Assembly (NCBI RefSeq): GCF_022682495.2
Contig: NC_071397.1
Span: 25,249,427 to 25,313,426, forward strand
Source of the DNA: Desmodus rotundus
Taxonomy: Eukaryota > Chordata > Mammalia > Chiroptera > Phyllostomidae
Direction of reading: 5' to 3'
DNA: 64,000 bases
The position numbers and the translations under genes are program-made. Shown piece by piece: positions 4,691 through 54,700 of the stretch; the stretch's first letter is position 1, and each line of letters begins with the position of its first letter. The notes below the pieces were generated by a model. That model saw nothing but the letters and a program-made list of their open reading frames with translations, was not told the origin of the DNA and ran no database searches.

Positions 4691-7600
4691 ACTTGAATAT
4701 TGTATGTTGCTGTGCACCTAACAGTCTAGTAACTGTTTATCTGAAAGTAATCCTAACTTTTTTTGCTTGAAATGGATAACTTATTTAATCTATATCAGTA
4801 TTCAAAGCAATATCACCTATGTACTTGTCCACAGTAATAAGGAAACTAGCTATATATATTGGTTTATTAATTTAATCACATTCAAGGATCATATTTAAAG
4901 TCAGAATAAAATACATCCTTTTTTTACATTTTCTTTTTGCATTTTTTTTCTGTTTAGATTCCACTTATTCCTTTCAAAATTTTGCTACAACTTCAGGAAG
5001 ATGAAAAACGTAAACTAGCTACTCTTCAGGTTTTATTGTTGTAGTTATAAAATAATCTAAAACAATCAAATGTCTCTATGAGAAAAATCAGCAATGAACA
5101 AACTATTCATTTGACATGCCTCATACCTAGATAAGCCCAATGTTCAAAGTATGAATTGTAAAGTAGAGATATTTGAATGAGTCCATATGTGCTCAGCAAT
5201 GTCGCCTTGGACCTAAGCGACCCCAACACACAGAGTAAAAATAGTCTTTCTCGTGTGTGCCTTTGCATTAATGCATGCTTCTATTCCAGTCTTGTAAACA
5301 GGCAGGCCTATCATTAAAAACTGTCTTGTACATGCAGAAATAATTTGATAAAAAAAGAGTATATGGCCAATGCAGTTGAAATATAAAGTGATCTTATGAG
5401 ATCTCTGGGTAACAGCAATAAAGATCAAAAAGCTGACGTAACAATGTTAGTAACTGAGACTCCGAGTCAACTAAAAAAATTCTGTAACAGAAAGAAGACA
5501 AGCCATGGTATAAGAACTTTGAGAAAAATTAAACACCTGAAATAAATTACTTTGCAAACAAAATATAATAATATGGTTTCTTAACTTGGCATTACATTTG
5601 CAATGAAAAAATACTTATTTAAAAGTGCATCTGCATTGAAAATAAAATGGAATATATAATATTTGCATAAAATATTTTTTATAAAACAGACCAAAATTTG
5701 AGTGAAAATAAATAATAGAGAAGAAATGCTTTAAAAGAAATAAAAATGGTATAAAGTGGTACGTGCACAAAAGACAACTTTAGATTTGTGATTTACAAAA
5801 CATAAATGATATTAGTACCTGAAGTAGGATGCGGAGTTAACACACAAAAGAACAATAGAATAATAAAAGGAAACTTTTCAACTGTAAACAAATAAAAAAG
5901 AGAAATAGCATCACATAGTCTAGTTAGATGCTTACAGTTCAAAGATAAAACAGAAGAAAAATAGTTGTATATTCTCTACTTAGCAGTCATTGGTATAATT
6001 ATTTTATATTTTTAATTAAAAAATTGAAAGTTTTGTAAGTTTCCAATGAGAAAGTGAATGAACTGCATTCATGAAACAAAATGTTCATAAAACAGGCCAT
6101 TCTCTGGTTTATTTTCTGCAATAATAGAGAGGAAAGCAGAATCATATCAACTGCATAATCCTCAGTCAATGACAAGATCTAAGAAGTTTGTACTTCACCA
6201 AGTTCTAAATCAAATGTGAAGCCAAGGACATGACCAAATACTTTAGGCTGGCAGTTTCAAATTTTCCACACCATTTGAAAGGGTAGGATACTATTTTTTG
6301 TTTCTTTTTTCTTTTTTTTAATGTGATGCCACATGATATTTCAGTTGGAAGAAAATTCATACTAAAATTATGAGAAAACAATAGTATAGAATGTTTACAG
6401 ATCATAGAAGGTTGAAATCATTTAATAAGGAAGTTTTCATCAACAATAAGACTTCAGGATAAATACTCTTATGATAGAAATTTATAGATTTGATAACTAT
6501 TTTCCCAATTAATATCAAACAAAATTTAGAAGGCTGATTTACAAAAATTCCAGCATTGAGAATGGAGACATTAACTTTAAGTTTGATTTGTATAAATTTA
6601 GAAGGAGAAAAAGCAAAAAAAGACAGTAACAAAATATTTCACCACAAGTGAAAAATGACATGAATGGAGCCATTTTAATGGAGTGGGAACATCCCCTGTA
6701 GAAAAACTATATTGCTTCTCATGTTCCTTGTACTTTTGGACTGGGCCGAATCTTTGAACTGGTCCAGATCTTTGGACCGAGATAAATCACACTTGTTCTA
6801 TAAACAGTTGTGTGTGGAAATTCAGAAGAAAAGCGACACCCTGAGGATGTGGACTGATAATTATGGACCTTGTATATGAAGACAGAATCAGTTACCATCA
6901 TGTATAGGCAAGAGTAGCTTAGTTTGTCAGCAACAAAAGGATTTTTTCCATGTGATTAATCCTTTCCTTTTTCTCCAAACCAAAACAAACAAACAAATAA
7001 GAAAACAAACAGAATATTCACCCTGTAATTGGAATATTATTTGGGTTTCTCCCCAAATTACAATTCTTTGATCCCAAATAAATACTTGTTGCCTCTCATT
7101 TTGGCTTTTTAAGTTTAGGTTGATATACATTGTGAATAGGAAGATTTTTTATTATATTTTAATGCAAAATAGGGATCAAAACAAAAACTTTGATATAATT
7201 TTTTCAATAAACAATTATTTGAATAAGGTTTAAGTAAATATATTGCAGATTAATCCTTGACCCCCACAAAAATCTGATAATTTTACTTGCAAACCTCTCC
7301 TTGCCACAACGAGTCTTTTGTAATAAATAAACTGAGGACTGTGCTGACTTGGTACCACTTCTGATGGCTCCTCACAGCCACTCTGCTAGTCAGTCCCCTA
7401 GAAGCTGAACTCCCAGCCGTTTACCATTCAGAGACTTTCAGGGACTTCGAGGAGCGTTGAATCAGCAGTGGAAATTTCGAAGACAGTTGATTCTTATTTA
7501 AATACAATTTGAACAACCCTGTGGCAGTAATGGATGCCTGTGCTTGTCCCTGGGAGATATTCCAGGAAAAGAAGCAGGTCTCTTCAGTCTGAATTCCACT

Positions 7601-8029
7601 GATTTCATGCTTTAAGAAAGGTCAGCCTAACTATGGCATGGATAACATCCTCTGAAAGAACTTTCTATAGAGTAGCTTTTATAGTGCTTAATTTAACAAA
7701 TGCTACCTTGGGTGAAAAAACATACATTTCAGTTTTAGGTTCAGTTATTTCTATTTTTATTGAATTTAATGAGTTTCCATGAATAAAGTCTTGATTTATA
7801 ATATTGTATCTACTGTGAGTAAGTGTTCAATTTACTGCTGCTTACCTAATCCAGGCACTGATTAACTGGAGGGGTCCTTGCAGTGCTCAAGTAATTGCTT
7901 TCATAAGTTTACGTTACACAAGTAATACTGATATTAGAAACATGTTTACTTTTATACTTTATTAGACCACCAGAGTAAAATAAGCAAAATCCATGCTCAA
8001 AATATAAGAGAGATCTCACACACAATCAT
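4691..8029. other. Intron-like AT-rich sequence, nothing recognised
   Basis: About 3.3 kb with only short chance open frames on both strands. I could not assign a repeat family, an RNA gene or an EYS exon here. Confidence 0.45.
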
Positions 8030-9396: not shown

Positions 9397-9596
9397 CTGC
9401 AGTAGAAAGTGTGTCCAGATTCATGAACACAAATCCCTCCTTCAGAACCGAGGTCCAGATTCAGTTCAAGCCCAGCGCGACCATCAGTATTTATCTCACG
9501 ACGGGCACCAGAACCTCCACTTGGGCAAATGCAAGTAAAGCTGTGGTCTGACTTCTGACAGGAGCCTTCTTGCATCCAAGGGATTGATGTGCAGCC
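9397..9596 (-). CDS. EYS: EYS exon encoding one EGF-like repeat and part of the next; several cysteines lost
   Basis: A 200-bp exon on the minus strand. The acceptor ends ctgaacttag (AG at 9597-9598) and the donor GTCAGT starts at 9396. It continues in phase 0 from the exon at 19790 and gives 66 codons plus two bases. The peptide opens GCTSIPWMQEGSCQKSDHSF, then TCICPSGG, and near its end has EGGICVHESGHTFYC. Human EYS, as remembered, has DCTSIPCMNEG, CQKSAHGFTCICPRG and GGICVDGPGHTFDC in the same order, so the gene identity is firm. Four cysteines of the family pattern are replaced: SIPC is SIPW (tgg), TGAYC is SGARR (cgt), DNC is DGR (cgc), and the VIC position is Gly (ggt). All are single-base changes from tgt or tgc. 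No stop or frameshift is present. The exon may be under relaxed selection or non-functional. Confidence 0.85.
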
Positions 9597-9889
9597 CTAA
9601 GTTCAGAAATAGAGAATCAAATTTGATTAGTAGTGGTAAGTCTAATAATTTTATTGAAATTTTATTATATTAAAGCATTTTAAAGAAACCAATATGTAAG
9701 CTTATCTGATATTCCCTTCCTCTAGTAAGTAAAGTATGTTTCTAGTAATAAATTATATTTACCTTTATCACCAGAAATACTCTGTCAAGTGTTTTATTAT
9801 TGTATTTTGAGGAAAAAAGTCTTTATGAAACTTTATTTATGTGCCATTCATAAAAGTAATAATCATATAATAACTGAAAGTTTGTGGCA

Positions 9890-10830
9890 TTTGCCAGCTT
9901 CTTCCTGTTTTTTCCCACACTTTTCACCTGGCAACCATCATTCCACCTCTGCTTCTACAAATTTAACTTTTTTTCCTTTAATATTCCATATATGAGTGAT
10001 ACTATGCAGGATTTGTCTTTCTCTCTGTCTTGTTTCACTTAGCATAACGTCCTCAGGGTTTATCAGTGTTGTCACGAATGGCAGCATTTCCTTCTTTTTT
10101 TTAAGAGTGAATAATATTTTACTGTATATATAGATAACACATTTTCTTTACCCAACCATCCGTCAATAGAGTCTGGTGTTGTTTCTATACCTCGGCTTTT
10201 GTGAACATTGTTGCAATGAACACAGGACTACAGATATCTCTTTGAGATAATAGCTTCATTTTCTTTGGATACATACCCAGAAGTGTGATATCTGGATCAT
10301 ATGCTAGTTATGTTTTTAATTTCTTGAAGACAGGAACGTCTGCACTGGTTTGAATAGTGGCTGTACCAGTTTACATTCCCACCAATAATATACATGTGTT
10401 CCCTTTTCTCCACATCCTTGCTAACATTTTATTTCTTGCATTATTGATAATAGACATCTTAATAGCTGTGAGGTAATATATCATTGTGGTTTTGATTTGC
10501 CTTTCCCTGATGATTAATGATGTTAAACACCTTTTCATATACCTATTGCCAATTGTGTGGCTTCTTTGGAGAAATGTCTATTCAAATCCTTTGTCCATTT
10601 TTAACTGGGTTATTTGGTTTTTGCCATTGCGTTTCCTGGATTTCTCATATATTTTCAATATTAACCCCTTATTAGATAGGTGGTATGCAAACCTTTTCTC
10701 TCATTCCAGAGGTTGCCTTTACATTTTGTTGATGATTTCCTTAGCTGCACAGAAAATTTTTATTTTGATATATCTTTCATTTATTTATTTTTGCATTCAT
10801 ATCATACATCAAATGAAAAATTAAAGGTTT
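9890..10830 (-). mobile_element. Old L1 ORF2 fragment, antisense to the plus strand
   Basis: The plus strand reads as the reverse complement of the L1 ORF2 3' half, for example the segment around 10240-10420 covering the 'tccacatccttgctaacat' region. The 112-codon open frame at 10486-10824 is the antisense of this element and is not a gene. Divergence suggests an old subfamily. Confidence 0.82.
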
Positions 10831-13379
10831 GTCAAACTGACCAGAGACTTTAATTATTGTCATTTTTAATGGATTGTACCCTTGAGTATAAAGCTCAAGT
10901 CATGCTTGGAACCAAGACAGTGATCTTTTATACTAATCCAAGTGATAGAGTTAAATGTATGTTTTTATAAATTAATACCATTTTGATATATTCTCTACTT
11001 TTGCTGAAAATGTGAACTCCTTAAGGATAACCAGGGGCATCGAGTAGACTTTGGCAGGTACTGCAGTTATTTTTATGGAATGTAAACATCAAAATTCCAC
11101 AGGGAATGGCCTGGAAACATGTTTCTCTCTTATCCCTATGGCTGGGTGTATATAGAATGATTTATTAGAAAGCATTACATAAATGAATTGAATTATATCT
11201 CCCATAGGAAAAAAAGAAATAGTTTTTAGAGTGCCAAAATTTCTGTCTCTAGGGTTTACAAGACTTTTACTAAATTAATTAGAAGGCTTAATGGGAAATA
11301 CAAAAACAATTTCTTTAAACAAATCAAAGTGTCAAAGTTCTTGATGTTTTCTAGTTCAAAAATTAAGGAGAATGCCTTTCCTTCTGTTCATGATCATTTA
11401 TATTACTTTACTATACCTTATTTAATATAATAAAGTGCTTCCCAAGGGGAACTCACTAATTTAATTTCAGAGAAGGAAAGAAATGTGTTTAGAGAAAAAG
11501 AAGGAGGCTAGGTGTAATGTCGCAGACCATGGCAATGTAGACAATTAAGCTAGACAATTTACCCAACTCGAATTTAAAACAGCACCCCAGGAAAGGCACC
11601 AGAGTGGGAATGAAAGAGCAGTGGCACGTCCATCGTGGACTGCTTCGGCAGAGCAGACCGCCCGAGTGGCTAGTAAATGCGCCAGTTATCCCTCTGACAG
11701 TTGGGTTCTATTGGAGGTATATAGTTTAATTCCAAAAGTTTGTCCTGGGATCTCTGAACCTCCCAGCATAGTAGAAATTTATTCTCTGATTTCATCTTTA
11801 CCATAAAACATTTCCCTCCTAGAATCATAAAGTAGTAGAGTACTTTCTTCCATACGATCTTGGAAAAACAGAATATATTAAACAGATAATCATACAACTG
11901 TTTTATTTGAAGAGGGAAATAGGGCAGGTGTCCATTAAAGCCCGCCTTACTGCAACAACTTATTAAGCATCACAGAATTTTTCAAATTTTGTCTCGTTCT
12001 GAATAAAAACTATCACTATAGTCTACTCTTTATAAAATTTAAGTTGTATATTAATACTTAAGCTTGTTAAATTACAGATTCAAATTCAGTAATAGGATTG
12101 GTGTAGGGCCTGAATTTTTCTATTTCCAACAAATCCCCTCATGTTTCTAGTGCATGGACCAAACACTGAGTAGCAAGAAGGTAGCCCAATAATTTCCATT
12201 TACTCACAAGGATGAGGACGAGCCCAGGGGCATTAGAATGACTTACCAAAGTCATAAAACAAAGTGACAGCAGAATAAAATCACATGCCCGGAAACTAAA
12301 TGCCCTGAATTCCAACTTATGGCTCTCATACCAACAAGCATTACTTTCTCTTTCAGAATATTTTCTCGGCTACAGAACTGTACAAATTATAATGTATATG
12401 ATAAAGGCTTAATGTCCCAAATGTTTACTTATAATTTTCATTTTCTAACTTGTTCGTTTTCAAATCATACATGGTTAAATATAGGGATGAAGTAGTTAAT
12501 AGAGAAAAACTTTTGTTTGACAACCGATTTAATCTGATTTATGGTGTTTTGATGTAAAGGAAGAAACTTTGTTATTAAAAAAATCAAACAAGATTCTAAA
12601 ATATCAAAATGAGAATATTTGCAGTAAATATCAATTTTTACTTTTTTATTAAAATGTGTCTGGCATTACCCCTGGGAAAGAAAGCCACTGAAATACAAGA
12701 AAACAAAAACATTGTCTCAGAAACAGTCTGAAATGCACAGATGAACAGTAAAGAAAATACATCGGGACTGAAACTAGACCCAATGCCAAATTCATGAAAC
12801 AAACGTGAAGATTTTTAAAAGGTAATAGAGAGCTCCAAACACACTAAAAAGTACACACTCCTATTTCCTCAGATAAAAGAATATTTCAGAAGAACTCTAA
12901 AGTGTATATTCAACATCTAACTTGGCAAAAGGAGGCATCAAATGTGCAACCCAGAAGGCGGAGAACACTGTGCTAAGGAGTCTGTAGCTCTGTAAGGGAC
13001 GTGGGCTGGCGTTAGTGCTCAGAAGAAGGCTCCACCCCACCTGTTTTGCTCTTCTCACTCAGGTTTGAGCTTACTCTCAATTGAACAGTAAAATAAATCT
13101 GCTCGTAACTTAGAGATTCAAGATTTATGGACCAGAGCAAATTAAGAAATAGAGAAAATGTATAGGAAAAGTATGTAAGAAAAGCTTCCGAATAAAGACA
13201 CAAACATGGTGGGAATGGAATAGGCTGTGAAGCCGAAAGGAAACACAGACACAACGTACGCAAACACACACAGATGAGCAAGAGAGTGTTAGTGATTATT
13301 TCCTAAATGAAACAGGGGGTGATCAACTCAATTTTCTGCACCTAGAGTACATAAATAATTTTTAAGAGCAATACACTTA
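10831..13379. other. EYS intron sequence, largely unassigned, with a possible MIR
   Basis: Mostly unassigned sequence between EYS exons. Around 12180-12340 the order of words (actcacaaggatgagga, gtcataaaac, gaattccaactt) is loosely MIR-like. Nothing gene-like was found. Confidence 0.4.
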
Positions 13380-13530
13380 AATATCTTAAATTGCCATCAA
13401 TAGGATACTGATTAAATAAATATAGCACCCCATGCCATGTAATATTAATAAGACTAAAGTAAAACTATATGTGTTAATGTAGGATAATCTACAATGACAG
13501 ATTAAATTTAAAAAATCAAGGTACTCTATA
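13380..13530 (+). mobile_element. Ancient LINE remnant (HAL1/L1-like 3' region)
   Basis: The order 'gccatcaataggatactgat', 'aaataaatatag', 'catgtaatattaataag' and 'aaaaaatcaaggta' matches the remembered 3' part of old HAL1/L1M elements. Family identity is tentative. Confidence 0.45.
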
Positions 13531-13903
13531 TGTGTGATAAAGTCCCCATTTACGAGACCTCCTTTATTTTAGAGATGTGTTTGCAGCCACAGAAGGTAGG
13601 TACAATGACTTGTGGGAAACAGCTGGTCATTTGCTGGGGAATTCCAACTCAAACCTTACCTCCCAAAAACCATACTGATGAATCTATAATTTATTACAAA
13701 TTAAAAGACAGTGAAAAAAACACTAGAAGAACTCTTTGGCTAAACCCCTTTCAAACTTGTCACAAGTGACAGAACCTTTAGAGGAAATCTCAATAAATTT
13801 TGATACATTAACCTTTTGTGTCGGGGGGCTTTAATGCAGTCCCCCGGTCCGCCATGGATGAAGCCGTGGCGATGGTGGCTCGAAGCCTCTGGTCCGTGCA
13901 GGT

Positions 13904-13919
13904 CCCTGTCCAGGCGCCA
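13904..13919 (-). repeat. Second, degraded copy of the primer-binding site
   Basis: In minus sense it reads tggcgcctggacaggg, following another copy of the LTR terminus. It shows that the LTR-end/leader module was tandemly duplicated. Confidence 0.7.
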
Positions 13920-14028
13920 GATGTCGGGGGGCTTTAACGCAGCCCCCCGGTCCACCACGGATGAAGGCCATCCGTAGCGATGGTGGCTCGAAGCCTCTGG
14001 TCCGTGCAGGTCCCGAAAATCCTCAGAT

Positions 14029-14045
14029 CCCTGTTCCGGGCGCCA
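14029..14045 (-). promoter_or_regulatory. Retroviral primer-binding site, tRNA-Lys type
   Basis: In minus-strand sense, two bases (tc) after the LTR end, the sequence is tggcgcccggaacaggg. This is one inserted G away from the classical tRNA-Lys3 primer-binding site. A more degraded copy is at 13904-13919. Confidence 0.75.
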
Positions 14046-14047
14046 GA

Positions 14048-14861
14048 TGTCGGGGGGGGGCTTTAACGCAGCCCTCCCGTCTGCCACGGATGAAGAAAAA
14101 GACTACCAAGACAGGATCTGCTTGGGGAGGAGAGGTGGCCGTTTCTCTCAAGGGGAGAAGGGCCTTGAGCTTTTCTCTTCCTGGGCTTTTATTAGGTTCA
14201 TTCGCATAGGAATGCAGATAAAGCTCATCAATCATTGTCAGGCAGTAAGGGTTAAACAGTACATGATTTACAGAGAACTCTGAGGGCTTATTCTGAGTTA
14301 CAGCCAATTAGTTAGAGGGCCATAAAACTTTAGGCGCCAGACTCATCTCAGGTCTGGACCCTTATCTCTTAAACTGAGGGTACAAATTAAGTAGGTTTCA
14401 CAGGAATGTATGTATTTTTCTTAGGCCTGATTCCCCAGGGAATCCACCCCTCCCAGCACAGGACTGCACTGCCCTCTGTTATTGCTTCAGGCTTAAGTCA
14501 GGCAAGGGAAGTAAGGCAGCCAAGAGATTAGGAGACTTCTTGCAGACAGAATGAGCACTCAGGCTATTTCAAAGCCGAGGGGCGAGGGTCCATCACCCCC
14601 TTTTGCCACAGCCCCCTGAGTCCTTCCCTGCGGGCCTCTTCTGTCACCAGAGCCTGTCTTAGGTTGATCTTCCCTTGAGGATTCTTACCCGTCATTGGCT
14701 AACTGGCCAAGCTCAGGGCCAAGCAGGGTAAAGTGGGCAGAGGTGGCACACCTGCCAGGGAGACAAGCTTTGTCTCCTTAGTGGCTTATGGTCCCAACTC
14801 TGACTCAGCCTTAACCATGAGGGGTTACAGCCTCTGAAACCAGGCAGAGCGGTTCCCAACA
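14048..14861 (-). repeat. Retroviral LTR, 814 bp
   Basis: In minus-strand sense it starts tgttgggaac and ends ccccgaca, giving the TG...CA ends expected of an LTR. An AATAAA motif lies at 14188-14193 in minus sense, close to the expected R region. It aligns along its length with the plus-strand LTR at 45211-46053. Confidence 0.9.
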
Positions 14862-14949
14862 GTTTTCTTTGTAGAAATTATTAAATGTAGATTTAACATA
14901 TTTAATATAATATAGCTATCTATGTATTATCATGTCCATTTTGTTAAAC

Positions 14950-15700
14950 TTTATTTTTTCCTAGAAAAATTTTTTAATCTGGACTTTCAAAAGTATTGGC
15001 ATAAAATATTTAATCATTTCCTCACATTATATTTGTATTGGTATCAGAGCTATAACAATGTCTCTTTCTTGTGACATTGACTATTTGTACCTTTTCTCAT
15101 TTTATTTATTTTGTAGATAAATATTGGGAGGGAGTAGTAAATTTCAAAGAACATACTTTTGCATTGTTATAGTCTTAATTCTCTATTTGTTTTTTACATC
15201 TTTAATGTCTGCTCTTATTTTAATGATTTTCTTCCTTTAACTTTCTTTGGGTTTAATTTACTCTTCTATTTATAAGTTTTATTTTTATTTTTTATTTATT
15301 TTTTAATTTTTTATTGCTGTTTAAGCACAGTTTTCTCCACTTCTCCCCCGCACACTCCCTTGCCCCATCCAACCCCCACCTTCCATCCTGGATCCCACCC
15401 CAACACTTTTGAATGTCAGAATCTACTATATATTGATTAACATTAACACAAATAGAAAAGCATATATAATATAATGTATATGATAGGCAAAACGTAAATA
15501 ATCTTATTACATAAAAAGCCCTTTATAAACGGCAGCTGGCATTTGATGAAATACAAATGCACGCACACACATTACTTTCTTTTCACTTCTTTTCTGTTTC
15601 TAGAACTTCTTTTAGTCCTTTTTTTATATTAGACATGCTGGTGATAAATTCTTAGATTTTCTTCATTCTAGGATGTTTCGATTCCTTCTTTTATTCTGTA
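14950..15700 (-). mobile_element. Old L1 ORF2 fragment interrupted by a younger L1 tail
   Basis: The T-rich plus strand resembles the antisense of L1 ORF2, for example 'ctttgggtttaatttactct' near 15246. A younger L1 3' UTR seems to interrupt it at about 15290-15405. Assignment is moderate. Confidence 0.45.
15290..15405 (-). mobile_element. Short L1 3' UTR insertion
   Basis: A T-rich run (the A tail in minus sense) is followed by C-rich L1 3' UTR including 'taagcacagttttctccact' and 'cccttgccccatccaacccc'. It is severely 5'-truncated. Confidence 0.7.
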
Positions 15701-16899
15701 ACCATGTTTTCTTTCTTCATGTTAGCATTTTCACATATTTATAAATTGCTACAGCAAACACGCAACCCTGCTCCCTTGCAGCAGTTATCCTCAGTCCCCA
15801 CACAATGGAGGGGAATGTTTGCCATCTATATCACTCTCCTCTCTTTCCTTTTATTGCTCCCTTTCTGTGTCTGTTCCCAGAGTTGAGTTAATTACATGGT
15901 CCAAAAACACAGTACCCATTCCATACCCAATCAGGAGTTTGTTTTTCTTCAGTGTTGATTCTAATTTTTAAAGCTCACCTCAAATTTTTAGATTGACAGA
16001 AAAAAAAGTTTGCTTGCATTTTTCTCCCTGCAGACCTAACACAAATTTGTTCATTTACTCTCTAAGAAGCTTCATATATAGCATCCTGCTCTTTAATGAC
16101 CTGAGTGTTCTTTTCAACCAGCACTGCCCATGTTTCTCCATTGCTCTTTTATCTTTAGCCTGGAAAGACAGACTTGGACATTAATACAACAATGCCCTTC
16201 GGAGGCTGCTATCTGTGCATTGCAACATAGAGCTACAATAAATAGGTCAGCTAAGTAAGATACATGACTGTATCTCCAAATAAAACTGATTGTGTGGAAG
16301 TATGTCAAAAATTCTTATATCTTGGTTTCTCATAGATGTTGAATATTGAATATATTTGCAGAACAAGTAAAATTACATTTAGAGTGCACTTAAAATATTA
16401 GTAAATAAAGATTCTTAAAAACTCTATTGAACTACAATAATTCATATAGATGGAAAAATGAGCTTTTAAAAAGCAGGGAAACAGAATAGATATTTCTAAT
16501 ACTAGGTATAGGAACATATAAGAGCATAAAACCTGAGACATTGCAAATCAGTAAAGAAATAACATATTTTTAGATGAAATTTTGATAATAATTCTTGGGA
16601 AAATTAATTATACTTTTGAAAAATAATCAAATTCCTGTCTTCTTTCATTATAACAAATATTCACTATGAGTTAAGGTATTAAAAGCATCATCAAGCCTGA
16701 AATTGTGGTAGATGAGAATGTAAGAAAATTATTTAAATAATGCTATATGAAAGCACTTTCTAAGGAGGGATAAAAACACAGAATCATTTAAAAAGTTTTA
16801 AAAAACCTAAATATTTTACAGTTTACTAGTTTTATAAAGTAAGAGTAGACAAGTATTAGAAAAGATTTGCAATTTTGAAGAATTTAGTAGATTTTATTC
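15701..16899. other. EYS intron sequence, nothing recognised
   Basis: AT-rich sequence with only short chance open frames. No named repeat was assigned with confidence. Confidence 0.4.
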
Positions 16900-17340
16900 A
16901 TAATTTTCAATAATATGTGCAAACCAAGAAAAAAGGCAAGCAAGCCCAAAGAAAACTACTATTAATTAAAGAATATACATAGACAAGGCATAAAGAAGAT
17001 ATACAAACGGAAAATAATCATATGGAAAAGTGCGAAATCTTTATAGTAACCTAGGAAACCATAAATTAAAATAATCACATGCTATATTTTCCTCATCAAA
17101 TTAGTCAACACATAAAAATGTTTACTAATTTCATAAGATCTAGGAAAGTTGGCATACTCATAGTCTCATTAAATAAGTGTAGTTTTTTTGAAATCCTTTT
17201 ATTTGGAATTCTTTTTAGCTATTAAAAGGACTCTGTCAGGACTGTATAAATTATAATGGAATGTTCCTAAGATATACCAAAGGAAACAAAAAGTCACTAA
17301 ATAAGGAGGATAATCAGTTCATTTTCCTATATATAAAGAA
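16900..17340 (+). mobile_element. Ancient LINE remnant (HAL1/L1-like)
   Basis: The order of weakly conserved words (ataatcacatgctatatttt, ggcatactcatagtctcatt, tcaggactgtataaatt) resembles the 3' part of old HAL1/L1M elements. Low-to-moderate certainty. Confidence 0.4.
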
Positions 17341-17440
17341 AATTAGAAAAAAATCTAGGCAATTTTAACAATTGTTCTCACAGCATTGGATATGAGGATA
17401 AAGATATACAAATTCATCTACAAAAAATATATTTATTTAG

Positions 17441-17623
17441 CCCTGGCCAGGTAGCTCAGCTGGTTGGAATGTCGTCCCTATATGCTAAGGTTGCTGTTTG
17501 ATCCTGGACCAGTGCACATAAAAGAATCAACCAGTAAATGCATAAATAAATGGAACAACAATTTGATGTCTCTCTCTTTCTCCTCCTCTCTCTCTAAAAA
17601 TGAATAAATACAATTTTTAAGTA
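17441..17623 (+). mobile_element. Ves-type SINE with target-site duplication
   Basis: A tRNA-derived head (ccctggccaggtagctcagc, containing an A-box) and a B-box-like gtttgatcctgg are followed by a ctctctctttctcctcctct tract and an A-rich tail. A 12-bp direct repeat, tatatttattta, flanks it at 17428-17439 and 17624-17635. This SINE class is characteristic of bats, which supports the organism assignment. Confidence 0.85.
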
Positions 17624-17763
17624 TATATTTATTTACATATTTCATTCTGAAGAAGAATGCCACATTTATACTACCAAGAGATAGTTTTTAGAGGATACTA
17701 CAGGCAATAAATGCAACAGTGCAAACAAGATATATGCTTCATCTACCAGGAAATTTATTAATT

Positions 17764-17779
17764 AAAACATTTTCCTTTC
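17764..17779 (+). repeat. Target-site duplication, left copy
   Basis: The 16-mer aaaacattttcctttc is repeated exactly at 17998-18013 around the L1 tail. Confidence 0.9.
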
Positions 17780-17997
17780 AATAGCAAGGGCGGGGGTGGG
17801 GGGGTGGGGGCGGGGACAGTGGGTAGAGGGGATTACAGGAACTACTATAAAGGACACATGAACAAATCCAAGGGGGAGGGTGGAGAGGGGGGAGGGAAGT
17901 GGGTTCACCTGGGGTGGGGTGAAGGGATGGGGGAAAAGGCATACAACTGTAATTAAATAACAATAAATAAATTAAAAAAAAAAAAAAAACAAAAAAA
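17780..17997 (+). mobile_element. Very young, severely truncated L1 insertion
   Basis: Only the G-rich L1 3' UTR end is present (ataaaggacacatgaacaaa, ggcatacaactgtaattaaa). A nearly pure A tail follows at about 17963-18000. The perfect 16-bp repeat aaaacattttcctttc lies at 17764-17779 and 17998-18013. Intact duplication and tail imply recent insertion. Confidence 0.93.
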
Positions 17998-18013
17998 AAA
18001 ACATTTTCCTTTC
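17998..18013 (+). repeat. Target-site duplication, right copy
   Basis: Exact repeat of 17764-17779. Its first four A residues cannot be told apart from the end of the A tail. Confidence 0.9.
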
Positions 18014-18109
18014 CACATCATGTATGGCTTTCACTATCTAGAACCAAATCAACATAATATCAACAATTTAATTAAGCTTTACAAAATAATGTATTAGAAA
18101 AATGTGCTG

Positions 18110-18300
18110 TTTTATTTATATGCATTATTTAGTTTAATCCACACAATAGCCTAAGAGGTGGTTACTATGATCACTCTCATTAGATAGCTAAATGATGATT
18201 TTAAAATATAAGTACAGAATTTGTTCAAGAACACACAGCAGGTAAGTAGGAAAATAGAGGTCAATCCCATTTCTCCCTAATGCATTTAACTACCTCATCA
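18110..18300 (+). mobile_element. MIR SINE remnant
   Basis: The order 'gcattatttagtttaatcca', 'cacaatagcctaagaggtgg' and 'aacacacagcaggtaagtag' follows the MIR core and tail. Confidence 0.7.
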
Positions 18301-19189
18301 CTCCCATCATTTACTGAGTATCTACAACATCTTACGTGCTTTACCATACAATGATGCTGTGATGTATGAACTATATTTTACTGAAAGACAGGAGGCAGGA
18401 GAGAGACAGATGGATTTAAATAAAATATTCATAGTCTTACAATGCTAAAGGCTGTATTTTGTCTCTATGCTTGCTTCCTTTAGCATGTAATTGTCAGCCA
18501 GGGAGGATTTGGAAGAACTCTCCATTATTCAGAAAGGCTCATGAGGTTTTCATCCACCAAGAAAAGTCTCAGACTTCAGGTAACCAACATTTCTCCACAG
18601 ATGAGGCATTCTGCATAAAATACCATATGTCAGTTATAATACACTAGACTCCTGAAGATTGGAAGACAGATCCTGAGGGTATTTACAGATGTGGAGGTTT
18701 GCTACATGTATCCATCTCTTCACACCTCTATCTAGAATTTATTTTCTCCTATGGTGTCTGGATCATTTATTCTCCTCTCATCCCTACACATCCACAGACA
18801 TTTGTGTATTCTAAGACCAGAGAGAGGAAATCAGGCAGCATGTCATAAGCCTTCTGAGGTCCTTTTGTCAAAGACCAAACCCAGGATTTAGTTTAATGAG
18901 GGCTCTAAGTTGCAGAAGTTTGTGATAACAAGAGAGAGTGGGGGAAGGCAAAAAAGAGGCTGTTATTTTTGTTTGGAGCAGCAGAAAAATTCCTAAACTG
19001 GTGAGGGACAGGGTAGTTAAATAATTAATAATCAAAGAAGTGACTCTGAAACCTATAGCAAGTACAGGGTCTGGTATAACTAACACCCTTTTTTTATTAC
19101 AATATCTTCTACTACAAAATCATAAGCATGCAACTCTGTAATATAACAACATCACACTCAAGCACATCACATGACATATTAGGTGAAAT
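18301..19189. other. EYS intron sequence, nothing recognised
   Basis: About 0.9 kb without an assignable repeat or exon. Short chance open frames only. Confidence 0.4.
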
Positions 19190-19655
19190 GTTCAAATAAG
19201 TGCCCATCAGCAAATGAATGGATAAAAAAACTATGGTACATTTACATAATGGAATACTATGCAGCAGAAAGAAGGAGCTCCTACCCTCTGTGACAGTATG
19301 GATGGACCTGGAGAGCATTATGTTACGTGAAATAAGCCAGGAGGTGAAAGACAAAGACCATATGATCTCACCTATAAGGGGAACCTACTCAACAAAACAA
19401 ACAAGCAAGCAAAATATAACCAGAAACATTGAAATAAAGAACAAACTGACAGTAATTAAAGGGGAAGTGGGAGGGGATAATGGGGGGGAAATGGGGAAGG
19501 GTTTTCAGGAACATGTATAAAGGACACATGGACAAAACCAAATGGGGGTAGGATCAAGGAGGGGAGGTGGAGATGACTGGGATTGGAGGGAGTGGTGAGG
19601 GGAAAGTGGAGACAACTGTACTTGAACAACAATAAAAAAATGTGAAAAAAACTAT
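19190..19655 (+). mobile_element. L1 3' end (ORF2 C-terminus and 3' UTR)
   Basis: The plus strand codes the L1 ORF2 end with breaks (WIKKLWYIYIMEYYAAE in shifted frames, KDKDHMISPIRGTYST at 19218-19520). The G-rich 3' UTR follows, ending acttgaacaacaataaaaaa. The A tail is short. It lies about 135 bp from the EYS exon at 19790. Confidence 0.88.
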
Positions 19656-19789
19656 GTATTATTACAACGTACCATATTATTACTGTACCAACCACAATCA
19701 AGCAGGCATTACTTCTGCCGGACCCTGTAGTTTGGTTTTCTTTTAAATTACTTCATATTTAATCAAAATATCAAAATTATAAAACTTAC

Positions 19790-19868
19790 ATTAATCTTGA
19801 TCTCACACCTTGAGCTAGTCCATTCTGTACCACAGGAACACCGATACTCATTAATGAGATCTGTGTAT
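19790..19868 (-). CDS. EYS: EYS exon encoding the C-terminal half of an EGF-like repeat
   Basis: A 79-bp exon on the minus strand. The acceptor ends in tctgtttcag (AG at 19869-19870) and the donor is GTAAGT starting at 19789. One base completes the Arg codon left open by the exon at 20739. Twenty-six codons follow, and the exon ends exactly on a codon boundary. The peptide starts YTDLINEYRCSC and ends SSRCEIKIN. This is closely like the human EYS segment that reads CTDLINEYPCSC and ends KIKIN. The two central cysteines and the last one are kept. The first residue, expected to be the third cysteine of the repeat, is Tyr (tac instead of tgc), a one-base change. The intron to the previous exon is only 870 bp; the intron to the next is about 10.2 kb and holds the endogenous retrovirus, a SINE and L1 insertions. 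The match in length, phase and sequence makes a chance open frame very unlikely. Confidence 0.85.
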
Positions 19869-20738
19869 CTGAAACAGACAATGGCATTTTAAGTAAGACA
19901 TTAAAGCATAAATTCAATAGAGTTCAACTATTTAGAATTGCTCCTTTACAGTTCTGCTTTAAAAAAAAAAAAGACACACATTCCCATGAATAATAGACTA
20001 GTCAGCCTTCAAGGTTAATGGGCTGAAAGAACAAATCAATTTTTATTTTTGCCATCTTACCCATGGCAGTGAAAAGAAAGAAGAGTTCTAAAAGGTCTAC
20101 AGAATGTCTAGGGCTTATGTAGGAAACTGAAGTCAGCTATAGACGAACTCCATTGCAAGGAGCTACCCATCTTCCTCTTTTCTTCCCTGCTCACATAGTG
20201 GCAGGACTAGAAAAAAAAAGTATTAATAATGCTGTGAAGACAGTTTGATGCATCCTAGAGCCATTCTTTGCCACGTGCATCTCCTAGAAATATCCTCACT
20301 CTGTATTTGCATAAAACAATTTTCTACCCATGAGCAGAATTTATTACGCAATTCCATAAAGAGAGCCACCAAATTCTTCACATGCACGTAGGGATGAAAA
20401 AACAGTTTATTTAGGAACATTTTAAATACTAAGTGTGTGGTATTATCCTTCCACACAGCAAATAATAAAATGTCTCCTCATCCTACCTGCTACCTGTATT
20501 ACTTTGAGCAGTTAACTTTAAGTATATTTTCTAATGAGTATAAATAAAAGAAAATCAGAGAAAATATATCAGTATATTGTATTAAGTAGAATAGGCAGCA
20601 TCTGTCTTCTTAACTGTACTTAGCGCTAGTATTATGAAATAGCATAATTAAAATTAATTTTTCTTGCCCTTGACATTGTCTTAAATATTGAGTTAAATTT
20701 ACTTTCTTAGATTCATAATAGAAAATAAAAATAGCTAC

Positions 20739-20910
20739 CTTCTGCACAGACAAGGATCAGAGAGGCAATCGCTTGCATTTGTTTCACAGTGGGTTCCCAA
20801 AAAGCCGCCCTTGCAGTCGCAGATGTAATGATTGACAAGATCAATACCAGCTCCATCATGGAGACAAGGCTTTGATACACGTTCATCTATATCTACTTCA
20901 CAGTTGATGC
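20739..20910 (-). CDS. EYS: EYS exon encoding one EGF-like repeat and the start of the next
   Basis: An internal coding exon of 172 bp on the minus strand. The acceptor is a pyrimidine-rich tract ending in AG at 20911-20912, and the donor is GTAGCT starting at 20738. The first two bases (gc) complete a codon from an upstream exon not seen in this window. The reading then runs 56 codons without a stop and leaves two bases (ag). The peptide begins INCEVDIDE and contains KPCLHDG, VNHYICDC and GTHCETN, the layout of a calcium-binding-type EGF repeat, and ends in the next repeat (DCLSDPC). The family assignment to EYS, a secreted photoreceptor extracellular-matrix protein, rests on the remembered resemblance of this exon and the next two to human EYS. 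Oddities: the cysteine expected after DIDE is Arg (cgt), and the one expected in the GTCID position is Gly (ggt). The codon split with the next exon reads aga, and the expected Cys just after it is Tyr. Open frame and splice sites are intact, but disulfide pairing would be broken. It could be a decaying gene. Confidence 0.82.
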
Positions 20911-28654: not shown

Positions 28655-28846
28655 CTCCTTTTCTCCCTCCCTCCTTTCTTTCTTTCTCTTTCCCTCCCTC
28701 CCTTCCTTCCTCCCTTCCTCCCTCCCTCCCTTCCTTCCTTCCTTCCTGCCTTTTTCTTTTCTTTTCTTTTTTCTTTCTTTCTTTCTTTTCCTTCCTTCCT
28801 TCTCCTCCCTCCCTCCCTCCCTCCCCCTCTCTCTCTTTCTTCTTTC

Positions 28847-28897
<51 letters not shown>

Positions 28898-28925
28898 TCA
28901 TTCTATTTCTTTCTTCTTTCTTTGT
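28655..28925 (+). repeat. Long polypyrimidine tract of CTTT/CCTT/CCCT units
   Basis: From 28655 to 28899 the plus strand is only C and T except for one G at 28748. It ends in about 13 perfect CTTT units (28847-28899), then a few imperfect ones. The open frames on both strands here are low-complexity artefacts. Such a tract is prone to length change and may form triplex DNA. Confidence 0.95.
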
Positions 28926-42024: not shown

Positions 42025-42790
42025 GGGGGGGTATCTCCGGAAAAAAATCCAGCCATTATTAATATAAGAACAGCTTGTGCAACATTGATGTAACTTTGGC
42101 AGCCAGGGAGAGTAGACTGGAATGCACAAGTGTGAACAATGACGACTTCACTGTACTAGTCAGTGGGGGCGGTAGATGCTGTTGAGTGAAAATGTGTGCT
42201 GTGTGCCCATCACATTGAAAATGACTGACTGACTGAGTAGAGCAATGAATCTGCATTAAATCTTGTGTGAAGCTTGCATATTCCTCTGTGGAAACTACTT
42301 GGATGATTCAGAAGGCTTTTGCGGATGATACAATGAGTGCAGCACAAATAAAAGTGTGGCACAAATGCTTCAAAGATGGTCAAGAATCTGTTGAAAGTGA
42401 TCCACGTTCTGGAAGGCCTGCAACAAGCAGAACACCTGAGAATGTTGAACATGTACAGGCTGCAATCAACAAAGGTCGGCAACTGTCAGTGAGAGAATTA
42501 GAAGCTGATCTAGGGATTCCAGAAACTACTGTGCCCGAGCTTTTGACACAGGATGTTGGCATGAAATGTGTCATGGCAAAATTTGCTCTGTACCTTCTGC
42601 TACCAGAGCAAAAGGAATACAATGCTGCATAGTTGGAAGAACTGTGTGAGGTCCCAACATGCCCACTTTGAAGGGGACAGAGGCATCATTTTCCTATGTA
42701 CAATGTTTCTTGTATCTGGTCTCTTCTTCAATAAATAGTTCTATTTTTCATAGTGTATGGCTGGATACTTTATGGACAGATCTTTGTATG
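42025..42790 (+). mobile_element. Internally deleted mariner transposon
   Basis: Terminal inverted repeats: the left end has tatctccgg then aatccagcc, and the reverse complement of the right end has gatctgtcc then tatccagcc. Inside, an open frame at 42267-42632 (121 codons) codes the N-terminal helix-turn-helix DNA-binding region of a mariner transposase (WHKCFKDGQESVESDPRSGR, LSVRELEADLGI). A full transposase is about 345 residues. The catalytic DDE/D part is missing, so the element cannot move itself. Confidence 0.88.
42267..42632 (+). pseudogene. Truncated mariner transposase, DNA-binding part only
   Basis: Helix-turn-helix fragment containing SAAQIKVWHKCFKDG, RSGRPATSRTPENVEHV and LLTQDVGMKCVMAKFAL. 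After LLPEQKEYNAA a stop follows, and the sequence goes straight to the element's 3' untranslated end. The catalytic core has therefore been deleted. It is an open frame but not expected to have transposase activity. Confidence 0.85.
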
Positions 42791-49942: not shown

Positions 49943-51703
<1,761 letters not shown>

Positions 51704-51714
51704 TAAGTAAATTT
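51704..51714 (+). repeat. Target-site duplication, right copy, of the ATP5F1B retrocopy
   Basis: Exact copy of the 11-mer at 49932-49942, lying 28 bases upstream of the pseudogene start codon. It fixes how much 5' UTR was copied. Confidence 0.85.
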
Positions 51715-54700
51715 ATTTTGGTAATCATTTTACAATGTCTGTAAGTCATTGCTTATATAATACTATTTGTCAATTATATCTCAATGAAACTGGAAAAAAT
51801 TCTCCAGCTCAAGGAAAAACATTGATTTATATACAAAAATTTTTACAGATGTAATTACTATACTTAAAAAAACTATAATGATAAGAAAATATTTCTTTTA
51901 AATAGTTACTATAGATTTGCTTATATTTCTTGTCTTCATCTTCACTTTTCTATTCTGTTCAGGAGCTAAAATTAGAAAAGTCTGGATTATTAATGAATTC
52001 TTCCATCGCATATCCTGCTTTTCAATAATAATATCTTCAATATCCATTTCTTCTCTATTTCCTTGACAACCGCCTTAGCTCAGAGCATCGCTATGTCTCA
52101 GCTGTGTTTTTAAAAGACCTTATTTCAACAATCTTCTTGGTATCGACACTAACCTCTACCACATTTTTTGAGTTTATTTTAGAACTTGTTTTCTAAGACA
52201 CAAATATTTTACATGTTTTTTCCTTATAAATTTCAATGACTTTTCCTTTTCTTTATGAAAAAATTCTTTTCTTAGTAAATCGTTTGCAGAACAGAACTCT
52301 AATCATATACCTTCTCACTGACTAACTGGAAATGCCTTACCTAAAGTACTGTAGTTTCCCTTTTCCTTTCTACTGCAATTGTGAAAGTGTATTTTTATTC
52401 GACTTTGCCCTCATATACCATGTTACCTTTTGGTAATTTTCTGATACATTAAGATGTATGGCTCCTTCCTTCGTCTGCATATGTCTGTACAGTTACCACA
52501 TTGAGGCTAATTACATATTTGCCACACTCTGAGTTCATTAACACTTCATTTCTGCTGCCCCAGTACCGGGTACAAATGCCTGGCCTATTCATTTCTTCTT
52601 AAAGTATATAAAAATGATTTTGATTCTGATCATTTTCATTTGATAATTTGGTGATTTCCTAGATAACTTCCCCAAATTTCTTTTTAATTTCTTCATAGAC
52701 TTCAGAAGGCACATATAATGATTTTTAAATAATTTTAGTGACTAAAGTTATACTTTGATCTTTCAAAGACCTAGTGTTTGTATACGTGTTAGCAGTTTTC
52801 TCTGGAATTGTGCAGTAGGTAAATAGCAATGACCCAGAGGTTTGAAAAATGCATATGAGGAGTTAAAATTGCTTTTATAATAAAGCTTGTGAAAGCAAGA
52901 AGCACTTCTGGGGAAGTCTTTTCAGTTTACTGCTAGGAGATTGAAGAGAGATTTATAACGATGGGTTGATGTTTTCAAACAATCAACAGACACAGGAGAC
53001 AAAATTATGACAAATAGCCTTTTTCCAATGAGAATGTGGGGAGGGAGTACAGGAGATCAGGTGTATGAGCTGGAGGATAAATGTCTTAGTCACTCTGAAC
53101 AAGAGAATACAGCTGGTGTAAATAGCATGACCTGGGTAATAGTACATTGAACAAGCGAAGGAGAGAATGATAAATTTAGAGATTGTCACTGTGGATCAGA
53201 GTGTGAGTCCATCTAGTGTAAAATTCTTCCTATGGCAATAACCGATATTTAATGTTCCAAAGGAAGATGAAAGCTCACAGACTGTACCTAGGCGATTCAT
53301 GCCATGTTATTATTTATCAGGTGAGAAATTTCTCTATCAGTCCAGTAGGTAATCACTGAACATCTTGAGTTATGAAGTTTGAATACCCTTTTATTGCTGG
53401 CAGATTTGCAAATGGTAGTGATGGACATAACGATAGTCAGGTTTTTAAAATACTCTTTCTACACTATCATAATTATTTTAATTTACCATTAAAATGCAAT
53501 GGTTCTCCACATCAGGTGGAACATATTCAAAAGTTGCATGTCATTTTCATAATAAGCTTGGGTCACAGCACATTTAAAAGACATGTAGAAGAGTAATGTA
53601 TTAGTGTTCATCCAGCCAATCAAATACCAGCCTGCCTTCTCAATGTTCAAATTTACTCTTGTTTTTGTATTTATAATTTTTAAAAACACTATTATTTTTA
53701 AACCTCTGAAATCCTTAAAAACACACAATTGGGTATATAATACACTCCTACTGAAATAAATAAAAGTAGGCTTCATCAGGGTTACCACAGTCAGAGGAGA
53801 TGGAGTGAACAAATAGCACATATTTACCAAGTATTATGCTACTGCTGTTGAGAACATTGGAAAGAAATGATGAAGCAGAGGTACTATGAGGAGTCTATGT
53901 GCCAGGAAGATGAATCAATAAGAAGGAAAAGCCAGGTTAAAAACTTAAAGATGTAAAACAAGTAACTCTTTCATTTAAAGAGTGTTTTCAACCATAGTCT
54001 TCCTTATTATACAGGCAGTAGCAGTCAACCGTTGACTAAGGTATGCAGTATACTTGTAAATACAATTATCATAATTCAGCTGCATCCTAAAAGAAGCTCC
54101 CTATGTGTTCACACATTTAGCTTTAGTAACTAACTATGCACTTTGTAGATGATAACACTGATTTTATCCAAAGAATTCATGAATATTTTTTTCATGAATT
54201 TTTTGGAGAAAAGTTCACTTCAAAGATTACAGTGACTGCTATGGGAATAAATGTTAAAATTCAGGACATCTGCTTGCCACTTCATAGTTATTAATGAAGA
54301 ACTGGTAGGCTAGTTTTCGAAAAGCTACCATAGACCTATAATGATGAGACATGGGTTCATAGTCAGCTGTATGCTAGATACTCTTAGAATAACTAAAAAT
54401 AATTCAATATAGTTCCTATATGTCAAGGCTGTGTTGTTTGAAGACTAATAAACAAATAAGAGAATTAATAGAGCTTGGAGCTGGAAAGAATTGCTTTTTA
54501 ATTAAGATGAAAATCAGGCATAGTGAAAGAATAAAGCTAATGATTGTATGACAGGATTAGAACTTGGGCTGCCTAAATGCCAATGAACAACTTTTGATTA
54601 CCACGCTGTCTATAACTCAAGGAAAGAATACATAATTCTGATCCACCTGCGTTGTCCTTGTTGTCTCTTTCTTCCCCCTAATGGATTTATTTTATCTTGT

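Follow-up and report, generated by a model that had tools for sequence, protein, structure and literature searches.

A bat EYS orthologue with degenerate EGF repeats and a frame-breaking exon 19, possibly in the last stage of its loss

The window, by which we mean the whole 64,000-nucleotide stretch analyzed here (C11:25249427-25313426 of a 2.12-Gb genome), carries on its minus strand three exons that match named EYS proteins in sequence, here numbered EYS exons 20-22. The exons and the altered positions within them are as follows.

20739-20910, minus strand: EYS exon 20, 172 bp, phase 1 to 2
20898-20900, minus strand: TGA ending exons 18-19-20 when read in the exon-18 frame, a consequence of the exon-19 frameshift
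20881-20879, minus strand: Cys1008 to Arg, exon 20
20848-20846, minus strand: Cys1019 to Gly, exon 20
19790-19868, minus strand: EYS exon 21, 79 bp, phase 2 to 0, exact start 19868
19867-19865, minus strand: Cys1056 to Tyr, exon 21, common to Phyllostomus discolor
9397-9596, minus strand: EYS exon 22, 200 bp, phase 0 to 2
9578-9576, minus strand: Cys1088 to Trp, exon 22
9500-9498, minus strand: Cys1114 to Arg, exon 22, also in the public sequence P0003
9479-9477, minus strand: Cys1121 to Arg, exon 22, also in P0003
9449-9447, minus strand: Cys1131 to Gly, exon 22, also in P0003

The best named match to these exons is the “protein eyes shut homolog” of the leaf-nosed bat P. discolor (E=3.2e-73, 82% identity), whereas chimpanzee EYS matches at 63% identity (E=1.6e-49). 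Judged by this protein similarity, the host is probably a bat near P. discolor, in agreement with the first-pass annotation, which had assigned the gene to a bat; the short repeats in the window may also be bat-type. A tblastn search with exon 20 matched the P. discolor record (P0001), a chimpanzee EYS fragment (P0002), and sauropsid EYS. In Pfam the window exons passed narrowly as EGF (23 bits against a cut-off of 21.5), and a PDB sequence search with the window protein matched only Notch and other EGF proteins.

With lizard EYS as query, the locus spans 1.4 Mb on the minus strand (C11:24399509-25796563). An N-terminal exon, an EGF array, and an EGF/LamG C-terminal half follow one another in order from 25.80 to 24.40 Mb. 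Outside C11:24.4-25.8 Mb, the best candidates, which were those scored, comprised lower-scoring EGF/LamG matches, not named individually, and a one-exon copy on C14. The latter (C14:89504243-89504413, L047) contains part of a single EYS LamG exon together with flanking intron sequence and differs from C11 by about 4%; as a divergence yardstick it gave no signal (mismatches 7/154 in the exon, 8/220 in the intron). Full-length mammalian EYS was absent from the best 120 of 594 matches. On sequence grounds, the window gene is the EYS orthologue by descent, with degenerate EGF repeats.

Exons 20-22 have AG/GT borders, join in phase, and read through 150 codons without a stop. Seven of the 23 cysteines present here in the chimpanzee fragment are replaced (R1008, G1019, Y1056, W1088, R1114, R1121, and G1131), and each replacement codon (CGT, GGT, TAC, TGG, CGT, CGC, and GGT, respectively) lies one base from a cysteine codon. 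An intact frame and intact splice sites, combined with seven EGF cysteines altered by one-base changes, were what the annotation had described, and both observations hold. We take residue numbers from human coordinates and number exon 20 from human exon lengths. Chimpanzee, Anolis, Vidua, and a snake have cysteine at all 23 positions, so ordinary variation does not account for the losses. The window also gains one cysteine, at position 1053. R1114, R1121, and G1131 also occur in P0003, a sequence with 2 differences from the window over 59 exon residues, which argues against an assembly error at these three positions. R1008, G1019, and W1088 were found in the window alone. Exon 20 lost the first and third cysteines of its first EGF, two residues that pair in EGF folds; such paired removal does not hold generally, as other EGFs lost single members of pairs.

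A further stretch in intron 22 (7525-7611, minus strand) shows 83% amino acid identity to the tail of a chimpanzee EYS model. It is preceded by AG and is in phase with exon 22, and could be an alternative 3' end exon or a conserved noncoding element.

By homology, which may miss damaged exons, we identified 33 coding exons across the locus. The stretch from the N-terminal exon through exon 26 accounts for 19 of them and the LamG half for 14. About ten exons are unseen, 9-11 among them. We assign most exon numbers from human coordinates, order, and phases, and regard those of exons 13-17 as the least certain. When conserved cysteines are defined as those invariant in Anolis, Vidua, and a snake, 27 of 144 are lost in the EGF half compared with 1 of 47 in the LamG half (Fisher p=0.0036), so that the EGF half departs from the six-cysteine pattern of its repeats. 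The 27 include a cysteine codon in exon 19 that is cut by the deletion described below. Losses occur in exons 5, 6, 7, 12, 13, 14, 17, and 18-24; exon 13 lost four of its six cysteines, and exons 4, 8, 16, and 25 lost none. The primate reference covers exons 20-22, and losses elsewhere may be older than bats. These counts replace a first table (11/104 vs 1/46, p=0.11) in which some references were aligned to the wrong EGFs; an intermediate count (23/132 vs 1/46, p=0.010) became 22/131 when an edge artefact in exon 8 was dropped by hand. The seven losses in exons 20-22 are therefore the local part of an array-wide decay of the EGF repeats.

The LamG half presents a different picture. All 14 of its exons seen are open and 46 of 47 conserved cysteines are kept. 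Its exons have AG/GT wherever their borders are fixed (the acceptor of L044 is unfixed), neighboring exons join in phase by eye, and in ten exons the best sauropsid identity is 53-76%. The low-complexity exon 26 is open over 545 codons (1635 bp) and in phase with the next exon.

The one frame lesion in approximately 8.1 kb of EYS coding sequence lies in exon 19, at C11:25317023-25316883, 3.6 kb past the right end of the window. An exon 18 that ends in phase 2 and an exon 20 that begins in phase 1 require an exon 19 of length 2 mod 3. The exon found has usable borders and measures 141 bp, which by phase and by comparison is 5 bp short in this one assembly. It reads in one frame to “...DECEIS” and in another from “LDGGNC...”, whereas the P. 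discolor record reads straight through the exon 19/20 junction. The shifted frame runs into the TGA at 20900-20898, and full-length EYS therefore cannot arise by normal splicing. This orthologous copy thus carries, in one assembly, the kind of frame-breaking lesion by which a unitary pseudogene is recognized. By arithmetic, skipping exon 19 alone does not restore the frame; skipping exons 19 and 20 does, these two spanning 318 bp in ancestral lengths from phase 2 to phase 2. The exon 12 donor is GC, which can still be used, and the exon 18 donor is poor (GTTAAA). Two other candidate lesions were rejected. Weak matches at C11:25305601 had been considered as a decayed exon 19 before the real exon was located, and an apparent stop in exon 25 (tblastn “KNCEFN*GDYC”) is not a lesion, because the human boundaries c.3684/c.3877 (PMC3045506) give a 193-bp exon and an AG/GT exon of this length begins downstream of the TAA.

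Comparison with P. discolor places part of this decay in time. Its EYS record, available only as a 221-aa database model, lost 4 of the 23 cysteines of exons 20-22, against 0 in chimpanzee and 7 in the window. Two losses (C1056Y and C1121R) are common to both bats, as is the new cysteine at 1053, which suggests that relaxation probably predates their split; C1028R and C1137S are losses of P. discolor itself. Its EYS keeps the exon 19/20 frame, unlike that of the window. The tail of the record after exon 22 matches C11:25112281-25112219, in intron 23 of the window animal, and the model therefore seems to splice exon 22 onto sequence that is intronic here.

The remaining sites of exons 20-22 do not evolve faster in the bat: among non-cysteine positions conserved in sauropsids, 28 of 75 changed in the window versus 29 of 75 in chimpanzee. 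We do not claim that cysteines were lost selectively over other conserved sites. One cut was suggestive in the window (5/19 cysteines vs 7/79 other sites, p=0.052), with 2/16 vs 6/78 on the P. discolor branch (p=0.62) and 7/35 vs 13/157 pooled (p=0.061). The signal was gone at sites conserved in chimpanzee, Anolis, and Vidua, in the window (7/23 vs 11/51, p=0.56) as in P. discolor (4/23 vs 12/51, p=0.76). Non-cysteine sites were also less conserved in the EGF half (183/469 vs 114/480 changed, p=4e-7), a difference that we set aside because chimpanzee is equally diverged in exons 20-22.

We then asked how probable the open frame is under neutrality, using a model that assumes 10% indels per substitution and scores the retention of all AG/GT borders with no stop and no frameshift. 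Given the loss of 7 of 23 cysteines, this outcome has a probability of 8e-4 for exons 20-22 and occurred in 0 of 4937 accepted runs for exons 20-25. Conditioning on only the five losses not found in P. discolor gives 8e-3 and 6e-4, respectively; stops alone are a weaker test (0.16 and 0.03). Over 7320 coding bases with no stop and one frameshift, the joint P is 0.06 at 0.5% neutral divergence, 0.002 at 1%, and 1e-6 at 2%, and a further 829 bp of coding sequence contain no stop. As far as the exons seen can tell, the divergence accumulated since the frame lost its protection is thus less than about 1%. In mammals, such a divergence corresponds to a few million years. The lack of any other stop or frameshift in the sequence read indicates that the frame was protected until recently though disulfides were already being lost; within the same limits, the disulfides appear to have been released before the frame lost its protection.

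The reading that best accounts for these data is that EYS is decaying and was recently broken in this bat, to which we assign a probability of roughly 0.68. The gene would be in the last stage of its loss, a long relaxation of the EGF folds with a translated frame having been followed by a recent break. In a first step, probably before the split from P. discolor, the EGF array would have been freed from selection for disulfides, and both bat lineages kept losing cysteines thereafter. In the exons read, nearly all of the frame and splice sites remained intact, so a protein was probably still made during much of this period. Finally, the 5-bp-short exon 19 seen in the assembly shifted the frame, bringing in a TGA shortly after the start of exon 20. 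The product of normal splicing would then stop at about residue 1000 and lack the last EGFs, exon 26, and the LamG half; the mRNA would be a target of nonsense-mediated decay. The shortfall in exon 19 makes recent loss the best reading for the full-length protein. The first-pass proposal that EYS is relaxed or recently lost is supported by the cysteine losses of the EGF half together with the frame break, with an open LamG half as a qualification, and the search for stops in other exons that it had called for returned, in the exons read, no in-frame stop and this one frameshift. Several observations count against decay: a single frame-breaking lesion, seen in one assembly, the open exon 26, the sauropsid identity of the LamG half, a non-cysteine rate equal to that of chimpanzee, and cysteines that are not singled out.

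Some of these observations would also be expected if a reduced EYS were in use, made by skipping of exons 19-20 or from a downstream start, with a LamG half that binds a partner and an EGF array free to decay. We consider this unlikely, though it is the strongest of the alternatives. The open LamG exons with their nearly complete cysteines, the open and in-phase exon 26, and a neutral model under which the gene as a whole can have diverged by no more than about 1% would all fit; the LamG half may, however, simply have remained under constraint until the whole gene died recently. A tentative corollary is that the two halves of EYS have been uncoupled, the EGF array being discarded and the LamG half kept under selection as a shortened protein, which, if true, would constitute a natural test of which part photoreceptors need. 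Less probable still is a functional full-length EYS that tolerates the cysteine changes, the short exon 19 being due to an assembly error or a rare allele. The otherwise open frame and splice sites and the chimpanzee-like non-cysteine rate agree with such a protein, but more than a sixth of the conserved EGF-half cysteines are gone, most of those in exon 13 among them, three losses recur in P0003, and P. discolor follows the same trend. An old pseudogene, neutral since the first cysteine losses, would explain the count of lost cysteines alone and is already contradicted by the neutral-model probabilities, including those conditioned on unshared losses and the whole-gene value at 2% divergence, unless unseen exons hold many lesions.

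In its architecture, the window gene resembles primate EYS, with an EGF array, a long exon 26, and an EGF/LamG half. Its remaining exon lengths presumably fit the human values. Human EYS is given as 3144/3165 aa (PMC5112921) and 44 exons (PMC2927534), and the boundaries c.1766/c.2024 and c.3684/c.3877 (PMC3045506) imply a 257-bp exon 12 and a 193-bp exon 25, the lengths also found here. It differs from the primate gene in the cysteines missing from exons 20-22 and in its frame-breaking exon 19. Mouse, rat, and guinea pig are described as being without a working EYS (PMC8127272), consistent with the annotation's premise that the loss in mouse and rat is established, and loss is reported for subterranean mammals (PMC7671337, PMC9355568). 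EYS is missing or interrupted in those mammals and interrupted in the window bat, where it seems to be caught early, with a near-whole frame, one frameshift, and decay concentrated in EGF cysteines. Among the literature matches listed, there was no report of EYS loss in leaf-nosed bats or their relatives, and “EYS” is absent from the main text of a six-bat genome paper (PMC8075899). The review PMC8127272 names EYS mutations as a major cause of recessive retinitis pigmentosa and links the distribution of calyceal processes with EYS. A bat lineage in mid-loss would add an independent case for retinal traits tied to EYS loss, such as calyceal processes, and would reveal in what order a disulfide-rich array decays, with its cysteines going first and the frame last.

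The window contains several other features. A minus-strand ATP synthase alpha/beta reading at 50321-51729 (PF00006 on 50324-51190), with neighboring pieces in other frames, is probably a processed pseudogene between EYS exons; the piece at 51034-51372 had no Pfam match, and we take it to resemble the ATP synthase beta subunit. A plus-strand reading frame at 42249-42632, with a weak helix-turn-helix (HTH) match below cut-off (PF13565), looks to us like the start of a mariner-type transposase. Finally, a long imperfect polypyrimidine microsatellite array lies at 28655-28923, and a GC-rich 108-bp unit is repeated 1.9 times at 13819-14014 inside an AT-rich intron.
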